The position numbers and the translations under genes are program-made. Positions 377-21,010 of a stretch of DNA of 64,000 nucleotides are shown here, one piece after another; position 1 is the first letter of the stretch, and each line of letters begins with the position of its first letter. Source of the DNA: Pelobacter seleniigenes DSM 18267 (GTDB taxonomy: Bacteria; Desulfobacterota; Desulfuromonadia; Desulfuromonadales; Geopsychrobacteraceae); the NCBI RefSeq assembly GCF_000711225.1, contig NZ_JOMG01000002.1:2678501-2742500 (forward strand), in the 5' to 3' direction. The notes under the pieces are model-generated. The model was not told where the DNA came from. It worked only from the letters and a program-made list of their open reading frames with translations, and searched no databases.

Positions 377-1840
377 CTAACGCATCATTTCAAACCACTG
401 GTCTTCACAGGTTTCATCTTTGATATCCAGAAACTTGTTGGCGATCACGGTCAGGAAGTTGATGGCGCCCTGATAGCCGATCACCGGGGTCCGGTGGATA
501 TTGACCCGGTCCATGACCGGGAAGCCGATGCGGAAGTGCGGGATCTTGGCATCACGAGCAACCCATTTGCAGTGGGTATCGCCGATGATGGCGTCGACCG
601 GATCGGTCATGCACAGGCTGCGCATGTGCCAGAGGTCTTTGTTGACGTAGACGCTGCCCTGGCTGCCATACAGCGGCGAGGTATCAAGCAGAGCCTGCAT
701 TTCCTTGGCAAATTTCTTGTTCGAACGGGAACAGAGGATATGGTACGGAATAGCTCCCATTTCGAGCAGGAAGGAGACGATGCCGAGCAGGTAATCCGGG
801 TCGCCGGCAACGGCAAATTTCTTGCCGTGGATGTACTGATGGGCATCGGTCATAGCGTCGACGGCGCGACCACGTTCATCCTTCAAGGATTGCGGAATCG
901 GTTTGCCGAACAGTTCACTGAGTTTCATCAGGAAGGCGTCGGTCTTCTTGATTCCCATGGGCAGCGGCAGGGTTTCCTTGACCCCGGAATATTCGGTGCC
1001 GATCCATTTCATGGTGTTCAAGGTGCTGTATTTCATCAGTGAAATGGTGGCCTTACCATTGATGGAATCGGCCGCATCTTCCAGTTTGGTACCGCCTGGA
1101 TACATGCGGTATTCGCCGTCACAGACCGAATCAAAGACATCGGTGATGTCAGCCATCATGGTGTAGGGAATATCCATGGCTTCGAGGTACTTCTTGTACT
1201 CGCGCAGGTTGCCGGTGTTGCCGTCAAAGCCAGGAATCAGGTTCAGCTTGCCGGTACATTTACCTTCGACTTTCTGCCCTTCGGTCAGGTATTGCAGGAT
1301 GGCATTCAGCATGCTGTCGTAGCCATGAATGTGGGTCCCGTTGAAACTCGGGGTGTTGGCGTACGGGGTCGGCAAGTCCTCCGGAATCACACCCTTGTTC
1401 TTGGCATTTCTGATAAACGCGGTCAGGTCGTCGCCGATAACCTCGGGCATGCAGGTGGTATAGATCGGCATCAGTTTCGGCTTATACAGGGTATAGGCGT
1501 TCTCCAGTCCTTCGTGGAGGTTGTTCTGGCCACCGAACACAGCGCCGTCCTCGGTCATGGCGTCGGCGGTCGCGGCGGCCGGCTCGCGGAAATGGCGGCT
1601 GAAGGTACTGCGGAAGTAAGAGGCACACCCCTGGGAGCCGTGAACAAACGGCAGGGAGCCTTCAAAGCCGTGAGCAACCATCTGTGCGCCAAGGGGCTGG
1701 CAGGCATGGGCCGGGTTGATCACTAACGCTTCGCGGGCAAAGTTTTTCTCTTTGTACTCTTCGGTGTTGATCCAGTTTTTAACACGCTCGATCTCTTCCG
1801 GAGAATGTTCGGTCAATGGTCTAACTGCTACTTCGCTCAT
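377..1840 (-). CDS. nifK: Nitrogenase molybdenum-iron protein beta chain
   Basis: This is the beta subunit of the MoFe protein, which with NifD carries the P-cluster in the cytoplasmic nitrogenase complex. The 487-residue product has the three expected P-cluster cysteines: Cys47 in HACQPLGA, Cys72 in HGSQGCASYFR and Cys130 in TTCMPEVIGDDL. The N-terminus is shorter than in Azotobacter NifK, as in many anaerobes. I chose the ATG at 1840 because AAGGAG lies 9 bases before it; an upstream in-frame extension has no ribosome binding site. It follows nifD by 169 bases in the nifHDK operon. Confidence 0.97.
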   Translation of the reverse strand: MSEVAVRPLTEHSPEEIERVKNWINTEEYKEKNFAREALVINPAHACQPLGAQMVAHGFEGSLPFVHGSQGCASYFRSTFSRHFREPAAATADAMTEDGAVFGGQNNLHEGLENAYTLYKPKLMPIYTTCMPEVIGDDLTAFIRNAKNKGVIPEDLPTPYANTPSFNGTHIHGYDSMLNAILQYLTEGQKVEGKCTGKLNLIPGFDGNTGNLREYKKYLEAMDIPYTMMADITDVFDSVCDGEYRMYPGGTKLEDAADSINGKATISLMKYSTLNTMKWIGTEYSGVKETLPLPMGIKKTDAFLMKLSELFGKPIPQSLKDERGRAVDAMTDAHQYIHGKKFAVAGDPDYLLGIVSFLLEMGAIPYHILCSRSNKKFAKEMQALLDTSPLYGSQGSVYVNKDLWHMRSLCMTDPVDAIIGDTHCKWVARDAKIPHFRIGFPVMDRVNIHRTPVIGYQGAINFLTVIANKFLDIKDETCEDQWFEMMR

Positions 1841-2009
1841 GGCGATAAACTCCTTTATCGTCACCACAGTTGCGTTGAGATACGGATTGATGTGCCGCCC
1901 GACCCTCTGGGGAGAGGGGGAGGGCACATTTTTCCTGTTTCACCGGTTCGGCCATCGGGCGCGTGACTCGGCAGTGCTCTCTGTTGCTGTGTGGTTCTCA
2001 AATATATGG

Positions 2010-3452
2010 TTAAAAAGGACTCTTGACTAAATCCCACGTAGGCGAATTGATCGCCATGTCGATGTCACGGGCAAAGATTTTGAATCCTTCGTAACCGTGA
2101 TAAGGACCGGAATAATCCCAGCTGTGCATCTGGCGGAAGGGGATGCCGGCTTTTTGGAAGACGTACTTCTCCTTGATTCCACTGCCGACCAGGTCCGGTT
2201 TGAATTCTTCGACAAACTTTTCCAGCTCAAACTCAGAGACGTCATCATAGATCAAAGTTCCTTTCGCCATCTCGGGAGCGGTCCGATCATAGTCGTCCTG
2301 GTGAGCGAACTCATACCCGGTGCCAGTGATCTGGATGCCGAGATCTTCATAGGCACCAACAGTGTGACGGGGGCGCAGCCCACCGACGAACAGCATGGCG
2401 GTTTTGCCTTCCAGGCGCGGTTTGTACTCATCGATCACGGCCTGGGCCATGGCGCTGTATTTGGCAATAACCTGCTCGCCTTTTTCTTTGATGGTGTCAT
2501 CAAAGCGGGCGGCAATAGCGCGAATACTTTCGGCGATCTTGGTCGGTCCGAAGAAGTTATATTCGATCCAGGGAATGCCCCATTTCTCTTCCATGACCTT
2601 ACACATGTAGTTCATGGACCGGTAGCAGTGGATGACGTTCAGTTTGACCTGGTAAGTCGAAGCGATTTTTTCGATCTCGCCATCGCCGGTCCAGATCGAC
2701 TTGACGTTGAGGCCCATTTCTTCAAGGATCGGTTTGGCTGCCCAGACATCGCCGCCGATATTGTAGTCGCCGATCAGGGCGATATCGTAAGGACCGGGTG
2801 CGTCAAGAAATTCCCGTTTACCGATGACGAAGTCACGGATCGAGTCGTTGGAAATGTGGTGACCCAGAGACTGGCTGACACCCCGGAAACCTTCACAGTT
2901 ACAGGGAATCACCAGTTTGCCGAGTTCCTTTTCCATCTTCTTGGTCACGGCATTGATGTCGTCACCGATCAGGCCGACCGGGCACTCCGACAACACTGAA
3001 AGACCTTTACAGAGCGGGAACAGTTCGTCTGCTTCACGCAGCAGTTTTTCGAGTTTCTTGTCGCCACCGTAAACAATATCTTTTTCCTGGAAATCAGAAG
3101 TGAAATCGAGGGGGAAACAGGTCACCCCGGGAATTCCCTGCATCAGGTTCCGACGTGTTCCCCAGCTGTAAACGCCGCAGCCGACGGGACCGTGAGAGAC
3201 GTGCACAACGTCACGAATCGGTCCCCAAACCACCCCTTTGGCACCGGCATAAGCGCAGCCCCGCTGACTCATGACGCCAGGGACGACTTTTTTATTGGAT
3301 TTGACCGCACAACTGGACACTGAAGGTTCGTTGGCGCCCAGGTGCGGGGCACGCTTTTTCTGTGCCTTCTCCGGCATTGCCGAGAGGGTCTCTTCAATCA
3401 GTTGCTCGGTTCTTTCTTTAGTGATGCCCGCGATGGGCTTTCTTTCAGCCAT
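2010..3452 (-). CDS. nifD: Nitrogenase molybdenum-iron protein alpha chain
   Basis: This is the alpha subunit of the MoFe protein, which holds FeMo-cofactor, the site of N2 reduction. The 480-residue product keeps the P-cluster cysteines Cys66 ([10 protein letters not shown]), Cys92 ([10 protein letters not shown]) and Cys157 ([11 protein letters not shown]). It also keeps the cofactor ligands Cys276 ([10 protein letters not shown]) and His443 (QMHSWDYSG). These residues point to the Mo enzyme rather than a vanadium or iron-only form; no anfG/vnfG-like gene is adjacent. AAGGAG sits 6 bases before the ATG at 3452, which I prefer to an in-frame start 15 bases upstream. It is the second gene of nifHDK. 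Confidence 0.98.
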
Positions 3453-3547
3453 TTGTTGCTCCTTCAAACGGTTAAAATTCCGAAGTCAGGCACATCTCGA
3501 TCAGACAAGTGCGGCCGCTATGGCCTGACTTCAGAGCTGTCAATAAA

Positions 3548-4541
<994 letters not shown>

Positions 4542-4800: not shown

Positions 4801-4816
4801 AGCATTAGCCGTGCCA
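4801..4816 (-). promoter_or_regulatory. Sigma-54 promoter of nifHDK
   Basis: The minus strand reads TGGCACGGCTAATGCT. The GG and GC dinucleotides are separated by exactly 10 bases and the -24 box TGGCAC is perfect. Transcription would begin near 4789, giving a leader of about 360 bases before nifH. Confidence 0.9.
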
Positions 4817-5083
4817 AAACTGCAATTAATCGGCTAACTCATTGTTTTTGTAGGATCTATTAAATCAAGTGCGCTGTCTGTTGAGACCTGGTCGAAAAAA
4901 ATAAGCGGCCGCGGCAACCTTCGATGCACAGAAAATGAGCATCAGCTGCAGCCCTTTGCAAGGAATCTAAGCATATGAAATACCTTATCTTTTTTGTCGG
5001 ATAAGCGGGAACGCCTAGGCTGGTTTGCAACCGCAGAGAAAGGGCCGCGGCCCGCGCTGGCACCGCACCGTGGCGACAAACGG
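4817..5083. other. Gene-free stretch upstream of the nif promoter
   Basis: No convincing gene is present. The stretch must hold any enhancer sites for the nif promoter and the end of the slyD transcript. A perfect palindrome GGGCCGCGGCCC lies at 5042-5053 and a small CTTATC/GATAAG stem near 4985-5005, but I cannot assign either a role. Confidence 0.4.
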
Positions 5084-10786: not shown

Positions 10787-10802
10787 AGCAGCTATTGTGC
10801 CA
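10787..10802 (-). promoter_or_regulatory. Sigma-54 promoter of the first glnK-amtB unit
   Basis: The minus strand reads TGGCACAATAGCTGCT with 10 bases between GG and GC. The leader to glnK is only about 50 bases and contains no terminator, unlike the second glnK unit. Confidence 0.88.
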
Positions 10803-10981
10803 ATTTGTAACGTGCTGAGATCGTGCAGGAAGGCAGTTTTTATGGCGAGATATGCTTATAATTTAGGCGGCTTGGTGTAGGGCTGCTTAAGCGCTGATCA
10901 GCACCGCTGCGCAAGCGGATGATACGGGGGACGTTGTGTGCGATGCAAATGAGTGACTGGGCGGAGATGGTCCAAAGAGGC

Positions 10982-11033: not shown

Positions 11034-12374
11034 TTATTTCTTGGTGTCTTCCGGGGTGAAAACGGAGCCGAGACGGACCGTGTGAAAGTCGGGGTAGGCG
11101 CTGGCGCCATGCTCCGAGAAATCGAGCCCGGCCAGTTCTTCTTCTTTGCTGACCCGCATACCAATGACCATGTCGATCACTTTAAAGAGAATGAAGCCGG
11201 TGGTGAAGGCCCAGGCAAAGCAGGTTGCGATGCCGATCAACTGCACGCCGACGGTGTGCAGGGAAAAGCCTGCCGAGTCAAAGAGTCCGGCAGCCAGGGT
11301 TCCCCAGGCGCCACAGACGCCGTGAACAGAAACAGCACCGACCGGATCGTCGACTTTGATTTTATCGAAAAACATAACCGAGAAAACCACCAGGATACCG
11401 GCCACCAGGCCGATAATTACAGCGGAAACCGCAGAGACATTGGCACATCCGGCGGTGATGCCGACCAGCCCGGCCAACGCGCCGTTGAGGGTCATGCCGA
11501 TATCGCTTTTACCGAATTTGAACCAGGTGTACAGCATGGCCGAAACGGCACCAGCGGCAGCGGCCAGGGTTGTGGTCACAGCGATAATGGCGATGGAGGA
11601 GTCACCGGTGGTGGTTGAACCGGGGTTGAATCCGTACCAGCCGAACCAGAGCAGGAAAACGCCCAGGGCGGCGATGGGAATGTTATGCCCGGGAATCGGT
11701 TTGACGTTGCCGTTCTTGTCAAATTTGCCGGCGCGTGGGCCAACCACAATGGCTCCGGCCAGGGCCAACCAGCCACCGACGGAGTGGACCACGGAGGAAC
11801 CGGCGAAATCAATGAAGCCAAGCCCTTCCAGCCAGCCGCTGCCATGGAACAGGCTACCCCAGGCCCAGCCGCCGAAAATAGGATAAATCAAGGCGGAGAC
11901 AAAGACCGAATAGACCATGTAGGCGCTGAATTTGGTCCGTTCGGCGACCGCTCCGGAAATAATGGTCGCGGCGGTTGCCGCAAACACGACCTGGAACATC
12001 CAGAAAGCATAGTTCCAGGCCTCACCGTCGCCGGTTGCGCCGCTGAAGAAGAAATCGGTGGTGCCGAACAGACCATTGGTGGTGCCGAACATCAGGCCGA
12101 AACCAACGGCCCAGAAGGCCAGGGAGCCGACCGAAAAGTCCATCAAGTTTTTCATCATGATGTTACAGGCATTTTTGGCCCGGGTGAAGCCGGCCTCGAC
12201 CATGGCGAATCCGGCCTGCATCAGGAAGACCAGGAAGGCGGCGACCAGGGTCCAGACAAAGTTCAGGTTGTTTTGTACGGCATCGGCGGTCATCGGCTCG
12301 GCATCGGCGGCGGCAGCCAGCAGCGGTGCTCCGAAGAGCAGGGCGAGCAATAATATCGAGGTGCGTTTCCTCAT
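11034..12374 (-). CDS. amtB: Ammonium transporter, second copy
   Basis: This is a second full-length Amt channel of 446 residues with a signal peptide (MRKRTSILLLALLFGAPLLA). It has the family motifs DFAGSSVVHSVGGWLALAGA and VHGVCGAWGT. It is clearly diverged from the first copy, so this is not a recent duplication of the whole pair. It sits 58 bases after the second glnK and ends at a strong terminator. It probably serves the same ammonium uptake and sensing role with different regulation, because its leader has an attenuator. Confidence 0.95.
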   Translation of the reverse strand: MRKRTSILLLALLFGAPLLAAAADAEPMTADAVQNNLNFVWTLVAAFLVFLMQAGFAMVEAGFTRAKNACNIMMKNLMDFSVGSLAFWAVGFGLMFGTTNGLFGTTDFFFSGATGDGEAWNYAFWMFQVVFAATAATIISGAVAERTKFSAYMVYSVFVSALIYPIFGGWAWGSLFHGSGWLEGLGFIDFAGSSVVHSVGGWLALAGAIVVGPRAGKFDKNGNVKPIPGHNIPIAALGVFLLWFGWYGFNPGSTTTGDSSIAIIAVTTTLAAAAGAVSAMLYTWFKFGKSDIGMTLNGALAGLVGITAGCANVSAVSAVIIGLVAGILVVFSVMFFDKIKVDDPVGAVSVHGVCGAWGTLAAGLFDSAGFSLHTVGVQLIGIATCFAWAFTTGFILFKVIDMVIGMRVSKEEELAGLDFSEHGASAYPDFHTVRLGSVFTPEDTKK

Positions 12375-12432: not shown

Positions 12433-12795
<363 letters not shown>

Positions 12796-12798
12796 TCA

Positions 12799-12837
12799 TA
12801 AAAAAAGCGCTCAAACTCTACGAGGAGTTTTGAGCGC
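12799..12837 (-). terminator. Intrinsic terminator in the second glnK leader
   Basis: On the minus strand GCGCTCAAAACTC pairs with GAGTTTGAGCGC (one bulged A) around a six-base loop CTCGTA and is followed by TTTTTTT. It lies between the sigma-54 promoter and glnK, about 30 bases before the start codon, and cannot be the end of the upstream kinase gene because the promoter lies between them. It is a clear attenuator candidate. Confidence 0.85.
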
Positions 12838-12912
12838 CATTGCTCTAAACATTATTGAGGTATTTCCTAACCGTAAGCAGGACCTTGGTTCCCGCAGGCC
12901 TGCTCGCTATTT

Positions 12913-13144: not shown

Positions 13145-14734
13145 TCAAATCTCGCGACATTTCTCCGGGAGGAAAATTTCAAAGCAACTGCCCCGTTCAG
13201 GAGCATCGGAAACCTGCAGGTGACCATCATATTCGGCGACGATTTTACGGCACAGGTAGAGCCCCAGACCGGTACCGGTGCCGTCCTTGCGGGCGGTGAA
13301 AAAAGGTTCGAAAATCCGCTCTTTGAGGGCATCCGGAACGCCTGGGCCGGTATCGCAAAAACGCACAAAGAGGCCGTTTCCGGGCCGGAATTCCGTGCTG
13401 ATGCGGATCTGGCCATGAGCCCCCATAGCCTGCACGGCATTGAGGATCAGGTTGATGAAGATCTGCTTGAAGCGATTGTTGTCGATATGGACCAGCGGCA
13501 ACTTGGCGAACTCTTCGCTCACCGTGATCTGCTCTTTGTTCAGTTCATAGCGTAGCAGTTTCAGGACATCGGCCAGGGTTTCGTTGAGATCGGTCAGTTT
13601 CTTCCGGCCTTCCTGGGCCCCGGAGTAGGAGAGTAGCTCTGAGGTCAGACTGGTCAGTCGCTCGACTTCGGTGTTGATCCGCTCCAGCAGCTCCTGTTGG
13701 TCGGCGTTGTAATTGTCTTCGGTCAACAGCAGTTCGCAGGCGTAATTGATGACCGACAGCGGGTTATTGATTTCATGGGCGATGCCGGCGCTCATCCGCC
13801 CGACCTCGGCCAGTTTTTCCGACTGGATGGTCTGCGCCAGGAGCTGCTCGAATTCGGTAATATCCTCCACTACCACCACGGCACCGATGGTTTTCTCACC
13901 GGCTTTGAGCGGCGCCAGGAAGCGTTTCTGGAGGCGGTTCTCCCCGGTCTGGCCGCGATGCAGCAGGCGCAGTTTCTGCGCTTTCCCTTCGGCCAGCACC
14001 CGCCGCAGCCGGTCGGCGATCCCTTCTTCTTCGAGGGTGGGGAACAACTCATTGAGGGGGCAGCCGATCGCCTTTGCCGCTGGAATGCGGCTGATCTGGG
14101 CCATGCTGTCGTTCCAGGAGGTGATGTGCAGTTGCCGGTCGACGGTGTAAACGCCGATACTGATGCTGGACAGAATCTGCCGGTTGAGGTTGTGGAGGTG
14201 TTCTTTTTCCTTATTGACCCGACAGAGATCCCGATACAGGCGGGCATTATCGATGGCAATGGCCGCCTGGCCGGCCAGGATCGACAGGGCATCGCAGTCG
14301 TCCGCAGAAAAAGCCTCTTCCTGCTGGCTTTCAACATTGAGGACGCCGATAATCCTTTCTCGGGCAATCAAGGGCACGGCCAGCTCAGAGCGCGCCGCTT
14401 CGATACCGGGGATATAGTCTTCGGCCTGGGCCAGGTTCTGGATCAGGTAGGGACGACCGAACTTGGCCGCTTTGCCCATGATCCCCTGACCGAGCAGGAT
14501 CGGCTGTTCGGTGACCGCCTGCTCATAGCCGAACGCGGCCACGGACTCCAACTGCCGGCCGTCCTCGCTGAGCAGACGGATAATGGCATTCTCGAAATGA
14601 AAAACCTCACGGGAAAGTTCAAGAATCCGGGTTAACAGCCGGTCAATATCGGTTATGGCGGCCAGTTCCTTGCCAACATCAATCAGCACACGGAACAATT
14701 TCTGGTTCTGATCATACATAGTCGCTGAACTCAT
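13145..14734 (-). CDS. GAF-PAS sensor histidine kinase (GnfL-like)
   Basis: The 529-residue product has no membrane segment, so it senses a cytoplasmic signal. Domains in order are GAF (about 15-165), PAS (185-300), the phospho-acceptor helix with His320 in GIAHEINNPLSV, and an HATPase domain with the GTGTGLGLYL lid. The ATG at 14734 is chosen because the sigma-54 promoter at 14789-14804 would lie inside any longer reading frame. Sigma-54 control and nearness to the ANTAR regulator make it the likely kinase partner, by analogy with GnfL/GnfR of Geobacter; an orphan role is possible. Confidence 0.85.
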   Translation of the reverse strand: MSSATMYDQNQKLFRVLIDVGKELAAITDIDRLLTRILELSREVFHFENAIIRLLSEDGRQLESVAAFGYEQAVTEQPILLGQGIMGKAAKFGRPYLIQNLAQAEDYIPGIEAARSELAVPLIARERIIGVLNVESQQEEAFSADDCDALSILAGQAAIAIDNARLYRDLCRVNKEKEHLHNLNRQILSSISIGVYTVDRQLHITSWNDSMAQISRIPAAKAIGCPLNELFPTLEEEGIADRLRRVLAEGKAQKLRLLHRGQTGENRLQKRFLAPLKAGEKTIGAVVVVEDITEFEQLLAQTIQSEKLAEVGRMSAGIAHEINNPLSVINYACELLLTEDNYNADQQELLERINTEVERLTSLTSELLSYSGAQEGRKKLTDLNETLADVLKLLRYELNKEQITVSEEFAKLPLVHIDNNRFKQIFINLILNAVQAMGAHGQIRISTEFRPGNGLFVRFCDTGPGVPDALKERIFEPFFTARKDGTGTGLGLYLCRKIVAEYDGHLQVSDAPERGSCFEIFLPEKCREI

Positions 14735-14788: not shown

Positions 14789-14804
14789 AGCATGGACAGT
14801 GCCA
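14789..14804 (-). promoter_or_regulatory. Sigma-54 promoter of the histidine kinase
   Basis: The minus strand reads TGGCACTGTCCATGCT with a perfect -24 box and 10-base spacing. The start site would be near 14777, about 43 bases before the kinase ATG. Confidence 0.85.
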
Positions 14805-14843
14805 AAATAGAGATTCGAACTTACGGGAGGCAATTCTTTTTTT

Positions 14844-14859
14844 TGGCTTGGTTTCTGCA
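14844..14859 (+). promoter_or_regulatory. Candidate sigma-54 promoter of the phosphorylase gene
   Basis: The plus strand reads TGGCTTGGTTTCTGCA with 10 bases between GG and GC. It matches the -12 box well and the -24 box in part. It is divergent from, and 40 bases away from, the kinase promoter, so one activator could serve both. Confidence 0.6.
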
Positions 14860-14929
14860 AAAATAGAGTTCTTTTTAACGAGGCTGAACATCAGCTCCTA
14901 CCGAGCTGCCACCCCGAAGGGATGTCTTT

Positions 14930-16681
14930 ATGCTCTTGAGGTCAGATCTTTCGTTGATCGAAAGCGTTGAGCGGTTTACCACCCGCCTGGAAAAAATTTA
15001 CAGCCCGGAACTCGCCCGGCAAACCGCTGGCCGGATTGTCGCCGAGCTGGCGGTCTTTAAGAAGAAATTCTCCCCCCGGCAGCACGAGCGGCTCTGGGAT
15101 CAGGGCGATGTGTTGCTGATCAGCTACGGGAATTCGATCGTGCAGGAAGGGCAGTTGCCGCTATGGGTGCTGGCCCGGTTTCTGGAGCAACGGCTGAAAG
15201 GGTTTGTCAACGTCATTCACCTGTTGCCCTTTTTCCCATTCAGTTCCGACGACGGTTTCGCGGTCATCGATTACCGCAAGGTCAATCCTCTGCTGGGGGA
15301 CTGGGAAGACGTCGCGCGGATCAACCAATCGTTCGAGCTGATGTTCGATCTGGTTATCAACCATGTCTCCAGCCATCACGGGTGGTTCGAACAGTTTATC
15401 CGTGACGAGTTGCCGGGGAAAAATTACTTCATCACTCCGCCGCCGCAGGCGGAGCTGGGGAAGGTGGTTCGCCCGCGCGAGTCTCCGCTGTTGACCCCGG
15501 TGGCCACTGCCGCCGGCAAGAAGTCGGTCTGGACCACTTTCAGCGCCGATCAGGTCGATGTCAATTTTGCCAACCCCGATGTGCTGCTCGAATATGTCCG
15601 GATCCTTCTCGACTACCTGGCCAAGGGGGCCAGGATCATCCGCCTGGATGCCATTGCTTTCTTATGGAAGGAATCCGCCACCAGCTGCATGAATCTGCCC
15701 CAGACCCATGAGTTTGTCCGCCTGCTGCGTGAGCTGCTCGATGCGGCGGTGCCACAAACCCTGCTGCTCACCGAGACCAATGTGCCGCATCAGCAGAATG
15801 TCAGTTATTTCGGCGACAGCGATGAAGCCCATATGGTCTATCAGTTCAGCCTGGCGCCGCTGCTCTTGCACAGCCTGTTTCGGGGCAACGCCCGCTACCT
15901 GAACCACTGGGCGCGGCGCTGCTGTCTGACCCCGCCGGGCTGCACCTTCCTCAATTTTACCGCGTCTCACGATGGGATCGGCATGCGCCCCCTGGAGGGG
16001 CTGTTACCGCAGGGGGAAATCGACTTGCTGCTCAAGGGGATGGAACAGTTCGGCGGGCAGATCAGCTACCGGACCAATAATGACGGCAGCAAAAGCGCCT
16101 ATGAAATCAACATTACCTATTTCGATGCCCTGAAAGGAACCTGGTTGGGGGAAGATAGCTGGCAGATCGCCCGCTTTTTGCTTGCCCAGACCCTGATGCT
16201 GGGACTGCGTGGGATTCCGGCCTTTTACATTCACAGCCTGCTGGCAACCCCCAACGATTACGCGGGGGTCGAAAAGGGGGGACGGGCACGTCTGATCAAT
16301 CGGCACAGTTGGGATCTGGGCGAGCTGGAAAATCTGCTGGGCGATTTTCAGACCCCGCAAGCGATTGTTTTCAACGAATTGCGGCGGCGGATAAAAATTC
16401 GCCAGCAACAGGCGGCCTTTCATCCCGATGCCCGCCAGCAGATTATTCACCTGGGCGATCATGTCTGCGGCTTCTGGCGCTACAGCCCGGACGGCAGGGA
16501 GCGGATCCTGGCGATCCACAATATCACCGACCAACTGCGCCCCCTGTATCTGGCAGGCCCTCTGGAAGGCAAGCTGAGCGGCCGCTGGCAAGGACTGCTG
16601 ACCGGTGAAGAGGTCAACGGCCTGCAGGCCACCGTGCAACTGCCCCCCTACCATGTGCTCTGGCTGAAACAGGTGGAGTGA
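14930..16681 (+). CDS. GH13_18 glycoside phosphorylase, likely glucosylglycerate phosphorylase
   Basis: The 583-residue product belongs to the sucrose-phosphorylase-like subfamily of GH13. Catalytic residues are visible: nucleophile Asp240 (IRLDAIAFLWK), acid/base Glu282 (LLTETNVPH) and stabiliser Asp348 (FTASHDGIG). The subfamily phosphorolyses sucrose, sucrose-6-phosphate or glucosylglycerate. The convergent neighbours are GpgS and a HAD phosphatase that make glucosylglycerate, so that substrate is most likely: it would recover glucose 1-phosphate and glycerate when the solute is no longer needed. AAGGGA precedes the ATG. Sucrose phosphorylase remains an alternative. Confidence 0.85.
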   Translation: MLLRSDLSLIESVERFTTRLEKIYSPELARQTAGRIVAELAVFKKKFSPRQHERLWDQGDVLLISYGNSIVQEGQLPLWVLARFLEQRLKGFVNVIHLLPFFPFSSDDGFAVIDYRKVNPLLGDWEDVARINQSFELMFDLVINHVSSHHGWFEQFIRDELPGKNYFITPPPQAELGKVVRPRESPLLTPVATAAGKKSVWTTFSADQVDVNFANPDVLLEYVRILLDYLAKGARIIRLDAIAFLWKESATSCMNLPQTHEFVRLLRELLDAAVPQTLLLTETNVPHQQNVSYFGDSDEAHMVYQFSLAPLLLHSLFRGNARYLNHWARRCCLTPPGCTFLNFTASHDGIGMRPLEGLLPQGEIDLLLKGMEQFGGQISYRTNNDGSKSAYEINITYFDALKGTWLGEDSWQIARFLLAQTLMLGLRGIPAFYIHSLLATPNDYAGVEKGGRARLINRHSWDLGELENLLGDFQTPQAIVFNELRRRIKIRQQQAAFHPDARQQIIHLGDHVCGFWRYSPDGRERILAIHNITDQLRPLYLAGPLEGKLSGRWQGLLTGEEVNGLQATVQLPPYHVLWLKQVE

Positions 16682-16693
16682 CGCAACAGACTG

Positions 16694-16724
16694 TTGAAAA
16701 AGTCCATTTCTGGTCTTTTTTCAA
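16694..16724 (+). terminator. Terminator after the phosphorylase gene
   Basis: TTGAAAAAG and CTTTTTTCAA form a 9-base stem (one extra T) just after the stop codon. The A- and T-rich arms would let it work in both directions between the convergent genes. The rest of the gap to 16846 has no recognised element. Confidence 0.5.
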
Positions 16725-16846
16725 ACCCAGTGGAGAAAGGTGTGATTTCGTCCTCCTGACAAAATCAATGCGTGAGAAAGTCGCCATTGGTTCTAATCGC
16801 CCATGCACGGCCTCACCAGCCTGTAAATAAGCCCCGCACGGCAGGA

Positions 16847-18061
16847 TCAGCCCTTATTATCCTCTTCGACCGCTTCGTAGACGTGATCCAGAATGTCCGG
16901 GACCGCGCTGATCACCCGGTTCCAACTTGGCATGAACGGGGTTTCCATGGGGTTGTTGATAAACACATCGCCGGCGCGGACGATATTTTCGGCAAACAGT
17001 TCCACGGCCTTTTCCTCTTTATGCCGGTCGATGGAGAGGCCGTTGATCACCGCATCGTCATAGAAGCGTTGAACAAAGTCGAGGGCGATTCGGTAGTAGG
17101 TGGCTTTGAGGCTGCGGAAGGTTTCCATGGAGAGGACTTCGCCCTGAGTAGCCAGCTTGCGGATAATGGCTTTGGTGATGTCGGTACTCATCCGGGACAA
17201 CCCCTTTTGCGGATCATCCTCGGACATTTCCTGATGCTTGTGATCATAGACATCGGCAATGTCGACCTGGCAGATGCGGCTGGTCGCGTAGTTGCGGTAC
17301 ATTTCCGAAATCACGCCAATCTCGAGCCCCCAGTCGCTGGGGATCCGCAGGTCGTTGAGGACATCGACGCGCATGGAAAATTCTCCAGCCAGGGCATAGC
17401 GGAAGCTGTCCAGGTAATCGAGGTAATCGGAGTGGCCGACGATCTTCTGCAACGAACGGATCAGCGGGGTGACCAGCAACCGACAGACCCGGCCGTTCAG
17501 GCTGCCGTTGGCAATTCGCGAGTAATAGCCTTTGCAGAACTGATAGTTGAAATGGGGGTTGGCGACCGGGTAAATGAGTCGGGCGAGCATCTCTCGTTTA
17601 TAGGTGACAATATCGCAGTCGTGCAGAGCGACGGCGCGACTGCGGCCTGATGCCAGCACATAGCCGAAGCAGTACCAGACATTGCGCCCCTTGCCCATTT
17701 CCGTGGGGGCCAGCCCCTGGTCCGCCAGCATCCGATCCACGGCGCGCAGGCGCGGGCCATCATTCCAGAGGATGCGGTGATCCTGGGGCAGCCGGGAAAA
17801 ATATTCTTTGGCGTATTTGAATTGCGTCTCATCGGCGCGATCCAGGCCGATGACGATCTCTTTCAGGTAGTTGGCGTTTTTCAGATCGTCAAGGATCGGC
17901 CCCAGGGCCGGTCCTTCCAGTTCGGAGAACAGGGAGGGGAGAACCAGGCTCATCGGAGTCCGGGTGGAAAAACGCTCCAGCTCCTTTTCCAGTTCCTCAA
18001 GCGGGCGAGAGGTCAGGTTGTGCAGGGTGGTGATGACTCCGTTCTGAAAAAAATCAGCCAT
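16847..18061 (-). CDS. gpgS: Glucosyl-3-phosphoglycerate synthase
   Basis: The 404-residue product matches the GT81 family, with ALHDCDIVTYKREML carrying the metal-binding DxD-type motif and GMGRNVWY-like GKGRNVWYCFGYVLA in the sugar-nucleotide fold. It joins glucose from an NDP-glucose to 3-phosphoglycerate, the committing step to glucosylglycerate. The ATG at 18061 follows AAAGGAGCCGAGC, and the reading frame overlaps the end of the phosphatase gene by 8 bases, so the two are coupled. A mannosyl-3-phosphoglycerate synthase is less likely, as those are a different length and family (GT55). Confidence 0.88.
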   Translation of the reverse strand: MADFFQNGVITTLHNLTSRPLEELEKELERFSTRTPMSLVLPSLFSELEGPALGPILDDLKNANYLKEIVIGLDRADETQFKYAKEYFSRLPQDHRILWNDGPRLRAVDRMLADQGLAPTEMGKGRNVWYCFGYVLASGRSRAVALHDCDIVTYKREMLARLIYPVANPHFNYQFCKGYYSRIANGSLNGRVCRLLVTPLIRSLQKIVGHSDYLDYLDSFRYALAGEFSMRVDVLNDLRIPSDWGLEIGVISEMYRNYATSRICQVDIADVYDHKHQEMSEDDPQKGLSRMSTDITKAIIRKLATQGEVLSMETFRSLKATYYRIALDFVQRFYDDAVINGLSIDRHKEEKAVELFAENIVRAGDVFINNPMETPFMPSWNRVISAVPDILDHVYEAVEEDNKG

Positions 18062-18875
18062 GCTCGGCTCCTTTGTCGGTATAGAGTAGCAAGATATCGT
18101 GGATGGCGCGATTCCAGCCGCTGGGGCCGGGTTGTTTGGCATGGAGGATTTTGCCGCAACGCGGCTCAGGAGCGATCCCGCTCGGGTTGGGAATGATCAC
18201 GGCCAGATCTGCCGCCTCCATCATCGCCCGGTCATTGGGACCGTCCCCCAGGGCGACGCTGAACAGCTTCGGATGCGTTTGCTGCCGCCGGAAATAGCCG
18301 AGCAGCCAATGGACCGCGGTTCCTTTATCGGCCCGGTTGTCGAGAATATGGAAGAAGCGTCCCCCCCTGAGCAATTGCAGGTTGTAACCGGCCAGCTCCT
18401 GCCTGAAGCGGGTCAGGGCTTCGGGGCTGTCCTGCCAGATAATCGGTTCACTCCCCAGGCGCTGGCGAGCCAGGGCTGCGGCCTGTTCGTCAAGGCCGGT
18501 GGCGGCCATCACCTCGGTGACGGAAAAATCACTGAATCCCTGAAAGCAATACGCTCTGTCTGCCCTGATTTTATGCACCAGGGGGATGAGTTCGGTATAG
18601 GGTTTGCCGAAAAAATGGGCATTCCCTGCCGTTTCGGCGTCCTGCGGCACGAGGATGATGCCCGCACCATTTTCCACGATGACCGGCGCGGCCAGGCCGA
18701 GGGCGGCATGGATCGCAGCCACTTCCGCCGCGGTTTTGCTGGTGCAGAGAATCACCGGGATCTCAAGGTCCGCCAGCTTTTCAAGGGCCGGCACGGCGGC
18801 GTCCCAACGGTAGGAATGGTGGTCGAGAAGGGTGCCGTCGAGATCGGTGAATATGATCAGGCGCTGTCGATACAT
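18054..18875 (-). CDS. HAD-IIB phosphatase, glucosyl/mannosyl-3-phosphoglycerate phosphatase family
   Basis: The product has the HAD nucleophile motif FTDLDGTLLD near the start, the lysine-bearing cap region, and LGDGPNDRAMME near the C-terminus, matching mannosyl-3-phosphoglycerate phosphatases. It should remove the phosphate from glucosyl-3-phosphoglycerate to give glucosylglycerate. Two ATG codons occur 6 bases apart (18881 and 18875). GGAG is directly adjacent to the first and 6 bases from the second, so I prefer 18875 (273 residues). It is the first gene of the unit with gpgS, behind a perfect sigma-54 promoter. Confidence 0.85.
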   Translation of the reverse strand: MYRQRLIIFTDLDGTLLDHHSYRWDAAVPALEKLADLEIPVILCTSKTAAEVAAIHAALGLAAPVIVENGAGIILVPQDAETAGNAHFFGKPYTELIPLVHKIRADRAYCFQGFSDFSVTEVMAATGLDEQAAALARQRLGSEPIIWQDSPEALTRFRQELAGYNLQLLRGGRFFHILDNRADKGTAVHWLLGYFRRQQTHPKLFSVALGDGPNDRAMMEAADLAVIIPNPSGIAPEPRCGKILHAKQPGPSGWNRAIHDILLLYTDKGAEHG

Positions 18876-18909
18876 GGACATCTCCGTCGTTGTGGATCAC
18901 GAAGAATAC

Positions 18910-18925
18910 TGCAAGGCGGGTGCCA
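18910..18925 (-). promoter_or_regulatory. Sigma-54 promoter of the glucosylglycerate synthesis unit
   Basis: The minus strand reads TGGCACCCGCCTTGCA, an exact match to the consensus TGGCAC-N5-TTGCA. Transcription would begin near 18898, about 22 bases before the preferred start codon of the phosphatase gene. Confidence 0.93.
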
Positions 18926-19017
18926 TGCGATGATACCTTGTTGGCAGGGGAGGGTCCAGCGGGGATTTGTACGGCAGCCCCTTCCCGGTCTCGAAAGGGG
19001 CCAACCAAAGGGGGCTG

Positions 19018-20430: not shown

Positions 20431-20496
20431 ACCCATCTGTCCCGAGTCCTGTCAGCTTGCCCTTCGTCCCCTCAGGCAAAGATCTGTTCGGTCGCA

Positions 20497-20650
20497 GCAG
20501 GTCTTCTGACTCCCGGTTCGTTCGCGGACGACGCCTTCCCAGGATCACCCAGTGGCATGTGTGTCGTCGTTGTCCCCGGTTACAGCGGTGGGTCCGCCCC
20601 CGATTCGCACGGGGTTCCCTTTTCAATCCCGAAGGAACTGCACCTGTTTT
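20497..20650 (-). promoter_or_regulatory. Cobalamin riboswitch aptamer controlling cysG
   Basis: The minus strand carries the conserved elements in order: ACAGGTGC at the 5' end, GGGAACCCCGTGCGAATC, the core ACCCACCGCTGTAACCGGGG, CACTGGG, GGGAAGGCG, and GGGAGTCAGAAGACCTGC, which closes stem P1 with the first element. This is the full-size class I layout. Confidence 0.93.
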
Positions 20651-20831
20651 TTCGATTGTCTGCTCTGTATATGTCCATCCCGCAGCGGATGTCAAATTTT
20701 TTAATCTCCACATTCTCCCTTGAAAAATGCCGGTTTTGCGGACTGGAGACGTGTCACTTGCGTATAGCGTCCGGTCGGTTTCGAAAATCGACCCGTCAGA
20801 ACGAATCATGCCTGGGCGCAAAAAAAATGAC

Positions 20832-20904: not shown

Positions 20905-21010
20905 GGAAAAGGCACGGGAGGGAAGGAAGGCGGTGAAAATCCGTCACGGACCCGCCACTGTGACCGGGAGCAGGTCTCCCGGGAGTCAGATACTTCCCCC
21001 CTGCAAAGCC
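20905..21010 (+). promoter_or_regulatory. Cobalamin riboswitch aptamer controlling the cobU run
   Basis: The plus strand shows GGCGGTGAAAATCCGTCACG, then GACCCGCCACTGTGACCGGG, and GGGAGTCAGATACTTCC, the hallmarks of a cobalamin aptamer. It is more compact than the cysG one, and the GGGAGGGAAG and CTTCCCCCC ends can pair as P1. A terminator follows about 60 bases downstream. Confidence 0.92.

Follow-up and report, generated by a model that had tools for sequence, protein, structure and literature searches.

The window analysed here is a 64-kb stretch of the 5.09-Mb genome of Pelobacter seleniigenes DSM 18267 (genome G000), and the subject is a gene module for a predicted glucosylglycerate cycle within it. 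A minus-strand pair encodes a HAD phosphatase of the mannosyl-3-phosphoglycerate phosphatase family, putatively a glucosyl-3-phosphoglycerate phosphatase (18054..18881), and GpgS, glucosyl-3-phosphoglycerate synthase (16847..18070), the two open reading frames (ORFs) overlapping by 17 bp. The convergent neighbour on the plus strand encodes a GH13_18 phosphorylase (14930..16681), and the gene for a GAF-PAS histidine kinase (13145..14734, minus strand) is divergent from it. Beyond the kinase lie glnK, amtB, a second glnK, a second amtB, an ANTAR response regulator gene, draT, draG and nifHDK (377-4426). The module was found to adjoin the glnK-amtB and nif genes, as in the original prediction, which had placed both synthesis and breakdown of glucosylglycerate under sigma-54 nitrogen control as a dedicated diazotrophic osmolyte module.

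The HAD protein scored 242 bits against the mannosyl-3-phosphoglycerate phosphatase subfamily TIGR01486 (cut-off 164.75), and its closest solved chain was 1xvi. For GpgS, the better of the two families matched was NF040724 (glucosyl-3-phosphoglycerate synthase), with 373 bits, short of the 700 set for the equivalog. The GH13 protein scored below the sucrose phosphorylase cut-off (199 versus 334 bits) and carried the (T/S)ETN motif as TETN at residues 281-284, together with Glu392 in the presumed loop A, a placement made by eye; both were invariant in nine aligned proteins. This motif and a glutamate in loop A are given as marks of glucosylglycerate phosphorylases in the accessible part of Franceus and Desmet (PMC7178133). 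The clusters described in the same excerpt hold the same enzymes as found here, a GH13_18 phosphorylase, gpgS and a phosphatase, along with a glycerate kinase, whereas no glycerate kinase of the type seen in relatives was detected in our genome (0/1 at E 0.001). The excerpt does not deal with regulation, and it states that the metabolic function of the phosphorylase in vivo is not experimentally confirmed (PMC7178133).

The HAD-gpgS pair is preceded by a sigma-54 -24/-12 element (ATGGCACCCGCCTTGCA, 18910..18926, minus strand). The exact consensus TGGCAC-N5-TTGCA, which had been claimed for this position, occurs without mismatch only once in the 64 kb (TGGCACCCGCCTTGCA, 18925-18910, minus strand), 28 bases from the HAD start codon. 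In it, 10 bp separate the GG at -24 from the GC at -12, and its score was 22 of 24. In Geobacter sulfurreducens, RpoN promoters were located by primer extension at glnB-glnA and nif-related genes, with the predicted consensus TTGGCACGGTTTTTGCT, according to the available portion of that study (PMC2725144). Matches with up to two mismatches were no commoner in the window than expected by chance (17 observed, 24.6 expected), so looser matches are meaningless alone and conservation was tested instead.

The gpgS gene was present in 16 of 98 genomes, our own included, and in 24 of 277 genomes of the class; eight of the 16 belong to the family of the window. A HAD promoter scoring 22-23 of 24 was found in seven of these eight (the window and the loci L017-L022), starting 42-56 bp before the HAD gene, and the eighth (genome G001, locus L028) has a different site, scoring 22, at -122. 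Together with a locus of another family, L024, which also has a HAD site scoring 22, a site of at least 22 was present within 300 bp before HAD in nine of the 16 gpgS loci, window included. The remaining seven had no site of at least 22 within that distance, L027 reaching 21 on only 54 bp. Over 176 kb of L017-L022, read on both strands, eight sites scored at least 22 and six of them were the HAD promoters. The start coordinates of HAD and phosphorylase genes in the relatives were extrapolated from alignments. Kinase and glnK genes served as positive controls: a site of at least 19 was detected no more than 500 bp away from 26 of the 30 kinase and 29 of the 30 glnK genes.

A symmetric box matrix, seeded by eye and trained on 29 glnK upstream regions, converged on TTGCCTAAWAATTAGGCAA (TGC-N11-GCA), which has the spacing we take to be that of the NtrC site. 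The box starts 67-70 bp before the -24 element in 23 of the 29 glnK upstreams, and 26 kinase upstreams that had not been used for training gave a mean score of 8.4, compared with 1.4 in shuffles (Mann-Whitney p 1e-7). In the window, boxes were found before nifH (4924-4942, score 13.2; sigma-54 element at 4801..4817, minus strand) and before the second glnK (10852-10870, score 12.7; sigma-54 element at 10787..10803, minus strand), and the box of the first glnK, which was in the training set, scored 11.3. Elsewhere in the genome, glnBA has a sigma-54 site of 23 and a pair of boxes scoring 17.1 and 14.1, and a box scoring 20.9 stands at the start of dusB-ntrB-ntrC. The NtrC protein encoded beside dusB passed TIGR01818 (559.5 versus 558.6 bits), indicating that the genome has an NtrC gene, and the NtrB-like kinase next to it fell below the NtrB cut-off (179 versus 240).

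The best box of the whole 64 kb, scoring 17.0, was located inside the HAD gene (18604..18622), with its centre at about +286 from the inferred start site, and the second-best (18560..18578, score 14.2) lies 44 bp further into the same gene. Only one of 60 shuffled windows reached 17, and none of the 60 had a pair of at least 14 within 60 bp. A strict box pattern occurred at six places in the 5.09-Mb genome (two for a reversed-pattern control), namely the HAD site, the dusB-ntrBC operon and four others, two of which lie inside long unrelated ORFs. Near HAD in the relatives, the second HAD box of the window did not rank with the top matches. The first was present in all seven family members with the promoter, +283 to +297 relative to the inferred start, and scored 16.8-18.3 in the six relatives; in five it was the best of the whole locus, and in L018 the best of the 2.1 kb that were scanned. 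Outside the HAD and phosphorylase genes, none of 75,330 positions in L017-L022 reached 14, and one reached 12.

Such a box could be a by-product of the HAD protein sequence and codon bias, with the sigma-54 promoter alone being regulated, as the codons of the AHFFG segment favour the central T run. When the HAD genes were synonymously recoded 300 times, the observed score was reached in no more than 0.67% of the recoded genes in each of L017-L022 and in 3.3% (p 0.033) for the window, whose box was the least significant of the seven. Boxes do arise now and then in HAD genes, since among 78 of other named loci three hold a box of at least 12 and two hold one of at least 14; the FG.PY motif was absent from all 78 proteins, which made it unusable as the intended control. 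Besides the low values in the six relatives, a by-product is hard to reconcile with L019, where AAQNFSR replaces the AHFFG of the others and the box still lies at +283, with the variability of this stretch of the protein in the family, and with the unrelated phosphorylase gene, which in four relatives has a box almost equally far downstream, three of the four with a recoding p below 0.05. We regard this origin as quite unlikely; judged by recoding, the HAD boxes of the family exceed what the protein sequence explains.

The box was placed differently in other lineages. Three loci from three other families of the order (L023, L025 and L029) have it 66-68 bp before a TTGGCA element heading a glycerate-kinase-like gene, HAD and gpgS, with TGT for TGC at -12. 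In L028 it lies between promoter and gene (14.4), in L027, whose stretch hardly held the upstream sequence, far inside HAD (16.8), and in L026 upstream of nifE/nifN-like genes (17.8). No box was found near HAD in L024, nor in L112 (genome G109) within its 3.5 kb. Recoding gave no box signal in the HAD genes of L023, L024, L025 and L028 (p 0.26-0.76), and values of 7.8 (p 0.03) for L026, 3.6 (p 0.05) for L029 and 16.8 (0 of 300) for L027. Nine gpgS loci of about 50% identity (L030, L031 and L113-L119) had no box of at least 9, although most span 2.5-4.2 kb and make a limited control; two of them have a site of 21 downstream of gpgS. A good TTGGCA -24 element with TGT rather than TGC at -12 was seen in similar places at L023 7370, L025 2227, L029 6078, L055 8231, L046 8229 and L108 8224, and may possibly be a variant sigma-54 -12 element.

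The scan of named loci covered the best 80 of 548 relatives. Two of these are Desulfuromonadales, and the titles of nearly all the others name Gammaproteobacteria (that of L068 names Emcibacter); the closest gpgS records, L032 and L033, are Desulfuromonadales and Desulfuromonas metagenome-assembled genomes (MAGs). Of the 80, eight have the NtrC dyad TGCACC-N5-GGTGCA before the operon with no more than one mismatch, against a per-region rate of 0.19% in shuffles; allowing two mismatches raises the number to 23 (2.7% in shuffles). One of the 23, L042, was scanned over 8.2 kb instead of 450 bp and is not among the eight. Excluding from 78 loci the two whose operon start was less than 200 bp from the end of the stretch, eight of 76 had the dyad 40-190 bp before a -24/-12 site, compared with 0.04 expected. 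Examples are TGCACCTCTTTGGTGCA in L067 and TGCACCACAAAGGTGCA in L097. Going by these matches, some Gammaproteobacteria have textbook NtrC sites upstream of the equivalent operon.

Adjacency of the module to glnK-amtB and the kinase was seen, among the stretches fetched, in this genome only, and the HAD promoter was kept in relatives regardless. No match to glnK or amt (E 1e-15) was found in the 15 stretches of relatives, 4-20 kb in length. Other nitrogen genes were found beside the operon. Three loci of one genus, L017, L020 and L021, have gltD, or both gltB and gltD, as the immediate upstream neighbour in the same orientation; in L024 nifHDK is divergent from the operon; and L026 has, upstream and in the same orientation, nifE/nifN-like genes that match nifK and nifD at 25-32%. 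Outside Desulfuromonadales, a gltB, gltD, nif, glnK or amt match was obtained in just two of the 78 named loci, L091 (a Thalassotalea MAG) and L097 (Thalassomonas sp. M1454), both with gltBD directly upstream. As a raw count, about five separate linkages to nitrogen genes were obtained, including that of the window. A 1,479-aa ORF in L037 had been suspected to be gltB and was rejected, its domains being those of Mfd. About 12 kb from the gpgS module of genome G013 stands a glnK with a 462-aa ORF behind it. Strong boxes and a sigma-54 site were observed there (L188 860 and 1722, contig C26), and the contig also holds gltBD.

In the window, cysG, a siroheme-synthase-like gene behind a cobalamin riboswitch, is directly upstream of HAD-gpgS on the same strand. 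Read-through from cysG, or a housekeeping promoter, could therefore provide most of the HAD-gpgS transcription and leave the sigma-54 site a minor role. We consider this very unlikely, as cysG had no match (E 1e-15) in the same 15 stretches, seven of which kept the promoter.

A nifH gene (E at most 1e-60) was found in 14 of the 16 genomes with gpgS and in 44 of 82 without it (Fisher p 0.013, kinship ignored). It was not found in G001 (94% complete) or G028 (80% complete), both of which have the pair of box and promoter. The description of the module as diazotrophic could not be upheld in view of these two genomes, and nitrogen limitation in general fits better than diazotrophy. Nitrogen control of synthesis through sigma-54 was by contrast strengthened by the conserved promoter, the NtrC-type box, the repeated linkage to gltBD, nif and glnK-amtB, and the gammaproteobacterial NtrC sites.

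We therefore propose that HAD-gpgS belongs to the NtrC/sigma-54 nitrogen-limitation regulon and is activated from the in-gene box about 285 bp downstream, a reading to which we assign a probability of roughly 0.7. Under nitrogen limitation, NtrB-NtrC would become active, and sigma-54 polymerase would bind the -24/-12 element just before HAD. Phosphorylated NtrC on the TGC-N11-GCA box inside HAD would then loop back and activate transcription of HAD and gpgS. The product would be glucosylglycerate, a nitrogen-free anionic solute that presumably replaces glutamate as counter-ion, and the phosphorylase would return it to glucose 1-phosphate and glycerate. What the sequences themselves contain is the promoter, the boxes and their conservation, the same box at glnK, glnBA, nifH and dusB-ntrBC, and the enzyme signatures; we infer from these that NtrC is the binder, that it activates from downstream rather than represses, that glucosylglycerate is the product and that it has the physiological role given above. 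Glucosylglycerate synthesis is probably controlled by NtrC and sigma-54 in response to nitrogen limitation generally, through a downstream intragenic enhancer.

Several points weigh against this proposal. No box was found upstream of the HAD promoter of the window (best -1.0, p 0.39), and the best among the HAD upstreams of the relatives was a weak candidate in L022 (7.7, p 0.03). The NtrC dyad usually lies upstream of the promoter, though this is not a strict requirement. The in-gene box was found post hoc, after the upstream scans had failed, the seven family loci that share it are kin and thus non-independent, and the value of the window under recoding is, as given above, the weakest of the set. 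L024 has a promoter of the full-score class and no box, this promoter leaving almost no leader before the HAD start. The strong box at dusB-ntrBC has no sigma-54 site of at least 19 beside it, and 57 of the 80 named loci lacked the dyad at up to two mismatches. The genome also has about 50 sigma-54 activators, so another one could act at the HAD promoter. If such an activator, for example an osmotic or envelope regulator, drove HAD-gpgS from an unrecognised upstream site, NtrC bound inside the gene could act as a roadblock to the elongating polymerase or as a repressor, and nitrogen limitation would lower synthesis. This arrangement would account for the missing upstream box, yet it sits poorly with the three other families of the order in which the box lies 66-68 bp before the -24 element of the operon, as at glnK, with the upstream NtrC sites of some Gammaproteobacteria, and with the gltBD and nif linkage, and we hold it to be unlikely. 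Model-free counting of dyads gave only weak leads.

Breakdown had been predicted to be co-regulated with synthesis. The phosphorylase gene has a sigma-54-like -24/-12 element (TTGGCTTGGTTTCTGCA, 14843-14859, plus strand), weaker than that of HAD, and the kinase gene has one on the opposite strand (TTGGCACTGTCCATGCT, 14805-14789). The distance between the two GG dinucleotides is about 42 bp, close to the 40 bases given earlier. The phosphorylase site was conserved as TTGGC(T/G/C)-N7-CTGCA, 39-87 bp before the start, in five of the six readable genomes of the family (not in L028), the CA of the -24 element not being kept, and was found in none of four other loci examined.

Four of the five genomes with the conserved phosphorylase site (L017, L020, L021 and L022) have a box inside the phosphorylase gene at +274 to +286, with scores of 16.2, 13.4, 8.4 and 12.8 and recoding p values of 0.007, 0.023, 0.083 and 0.043, respectively. 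The phosphorylase gene of the window had no in-gene box (best 2.8, p 0.88). Upstream of the phosphorylase and kinase promoters of the window, no convincing box was found (0.3 and 4.4), and the kinase gene contained none of at least 7.6. Weak upstream candidates were seen for the phosphorylase promoters of L017 (9.6 at -224) and L022 (8.9, p 0.05). A search for NtrC or NifA boxes upstream of HAD, phosphorylase and kinase in the window gave no convincing candidate, the sole TGT-N10-ACA match overlapping the HAD start. The HAD and phosphorylase leaders folded unremarkably (z +1.17 and -0.13), with no sign of an ANTAR-type leader structure.

The absence of boxes from both genes and both upstreams in the window, and the weak upstream candidates of the two relatives, would suit an arrangement in which phosphorylase and kinase promoters share an activator of their own as a separate unit, with breakdown off the switch that controls synthesis in this genome. 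The conserved site in five of six family genomes and the in-gene box at +274 to +286 in four genomes besides that of the window speak for a common control instead, and we give the separate unit somewhat short of even odds. The prediction of co-regulated breakdown accordingly stands in part, for the family by the conserved site and the boxes of four relatives, and is left without a box in the phosphorylase gene of the window and without the site in G001; NtrC control of the phosphorylase in this genome must be regarded as putative and unproven. In the kinase loci L127, L129, L130 and L131, all of one genus, an in-ORF box scoring about 14 was observed, 334-354 bp downstream of where the -24 element begins, as another possible in-gene enhancer.

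It seems to us evenly balanced whether NtrC in this family activates the promoters of the osmolyte cycle from conserved coding-sequence enhancers at a fixed distance of about +280, in two unrelated genes, those for the phosphatase and the phosphorylase, and in one genus perhaps also in that for the kinase, with NtrC control being ancient or repeatedly gained and shared by Desulfuromonadia and some Gammaproteobacteria. If so, each elongating polymerase would have to cross the enhancer, and expression could be self-limiting or pulsed. The family would then be a natural example well suited to studying how sigma-54 promoters are activated from downstream, and regulon scans confined to upstream regions would miss such enhancers.

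The known NtrC/sigma-54 regulon of glnBA, glnK-amtB and ntrBC likewise has -24/-12 promoters and TGC-N11-GCA boxes, whereas the target here is an osmolyte pathway and the box of the family lies about 285 bp downstream within the gene, not upstream. To our knowledge, mycobacteria and cyanobacteria do not have the NtrC/sigma-54 system used here, so a different regulator must act there. Glucosylglycerate is reported to accumulate in them under nitrogen starvation, as predicted here, and low-nitrogen media seem favourable, according to the accessible sections of a review (PMC11009771). Sites inside genes are reported, in the excerpts available, for sigma-54 binding in E. coli (PMC4591121) and for an NtrC peak within cdzI of Caulobacter (PMC10274813), whereas the boxes described here are putative activator boxes, conserved at a fixed downstream distance and each paired with a promoter, a conserved pairing not encountered in the literature covered. 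In the open-licence literature, mostly at the level of listings, no report was found that ties NtrC or sigma-54 to glucosylglycerate genes, and none that combines Desulfuromonas and glucosylglycerate. The enzymes and their cluster are known; going by the literature searched, what would be new is the control of an osmolyte pathway by NtrC through a conserved enhancer that lies inside the gene at a constant distance. A switch of the nitrogen-starvation type on glucosylglycerate genes would tie the choice of osmolyte directly to nitrogen supply. With a defined regulator, promoter and box, the notion that a nitrogen-free solute replaces glutamate becomes genetically testable in several lineages, including Thalassomonas sp. 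M1454.

The kinase of the window has the domain order GAF-PAS-HisKA-HATPase and, going by domains and position, is probably the counterpart of Geobacter GnfK, GSU0941, being beside glnK in many relatives. GnfR presumably acts in the control of nitrogen fixation in Geobacter. Likeness to the GnfK/GnfR system, as described in the part of the source at hand (PMC7962754), consists in a kinase beside glnK-amtB, an ANTAR response regulator nearby and a sigma-54 promoter, and is drawn from domains and position only.

Some further features were noted. The first glnK (12433..12771) and first amtB (11034..12374) are both on the minus strand. In the leader of this glnK (12755-12900, minus strand), a run of U residues comes after a GC-rich hairpin. 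Termination control with an ANTAR regulator would predict such a structure; its z is only -1.3. Two divergent cobalamin riboswitches (Rfam RF00174) lie at 20479-20657 (minus strand), before cysG, and at 20923-20995 (plus strand), before ORFs read as cob genes. The gpgS gene of G073 (L024 9025-10254) has one in-frame TAG and that of G002 (L004 474-1694) one TGA, reflecting sequencing error or decay. Outside the known nitrogen genes, a strong box at L181 1501 (G000:C1:108048) lies about 200-250 bp before an ORF that looked by eye like an Xaa-Pro peptidase.

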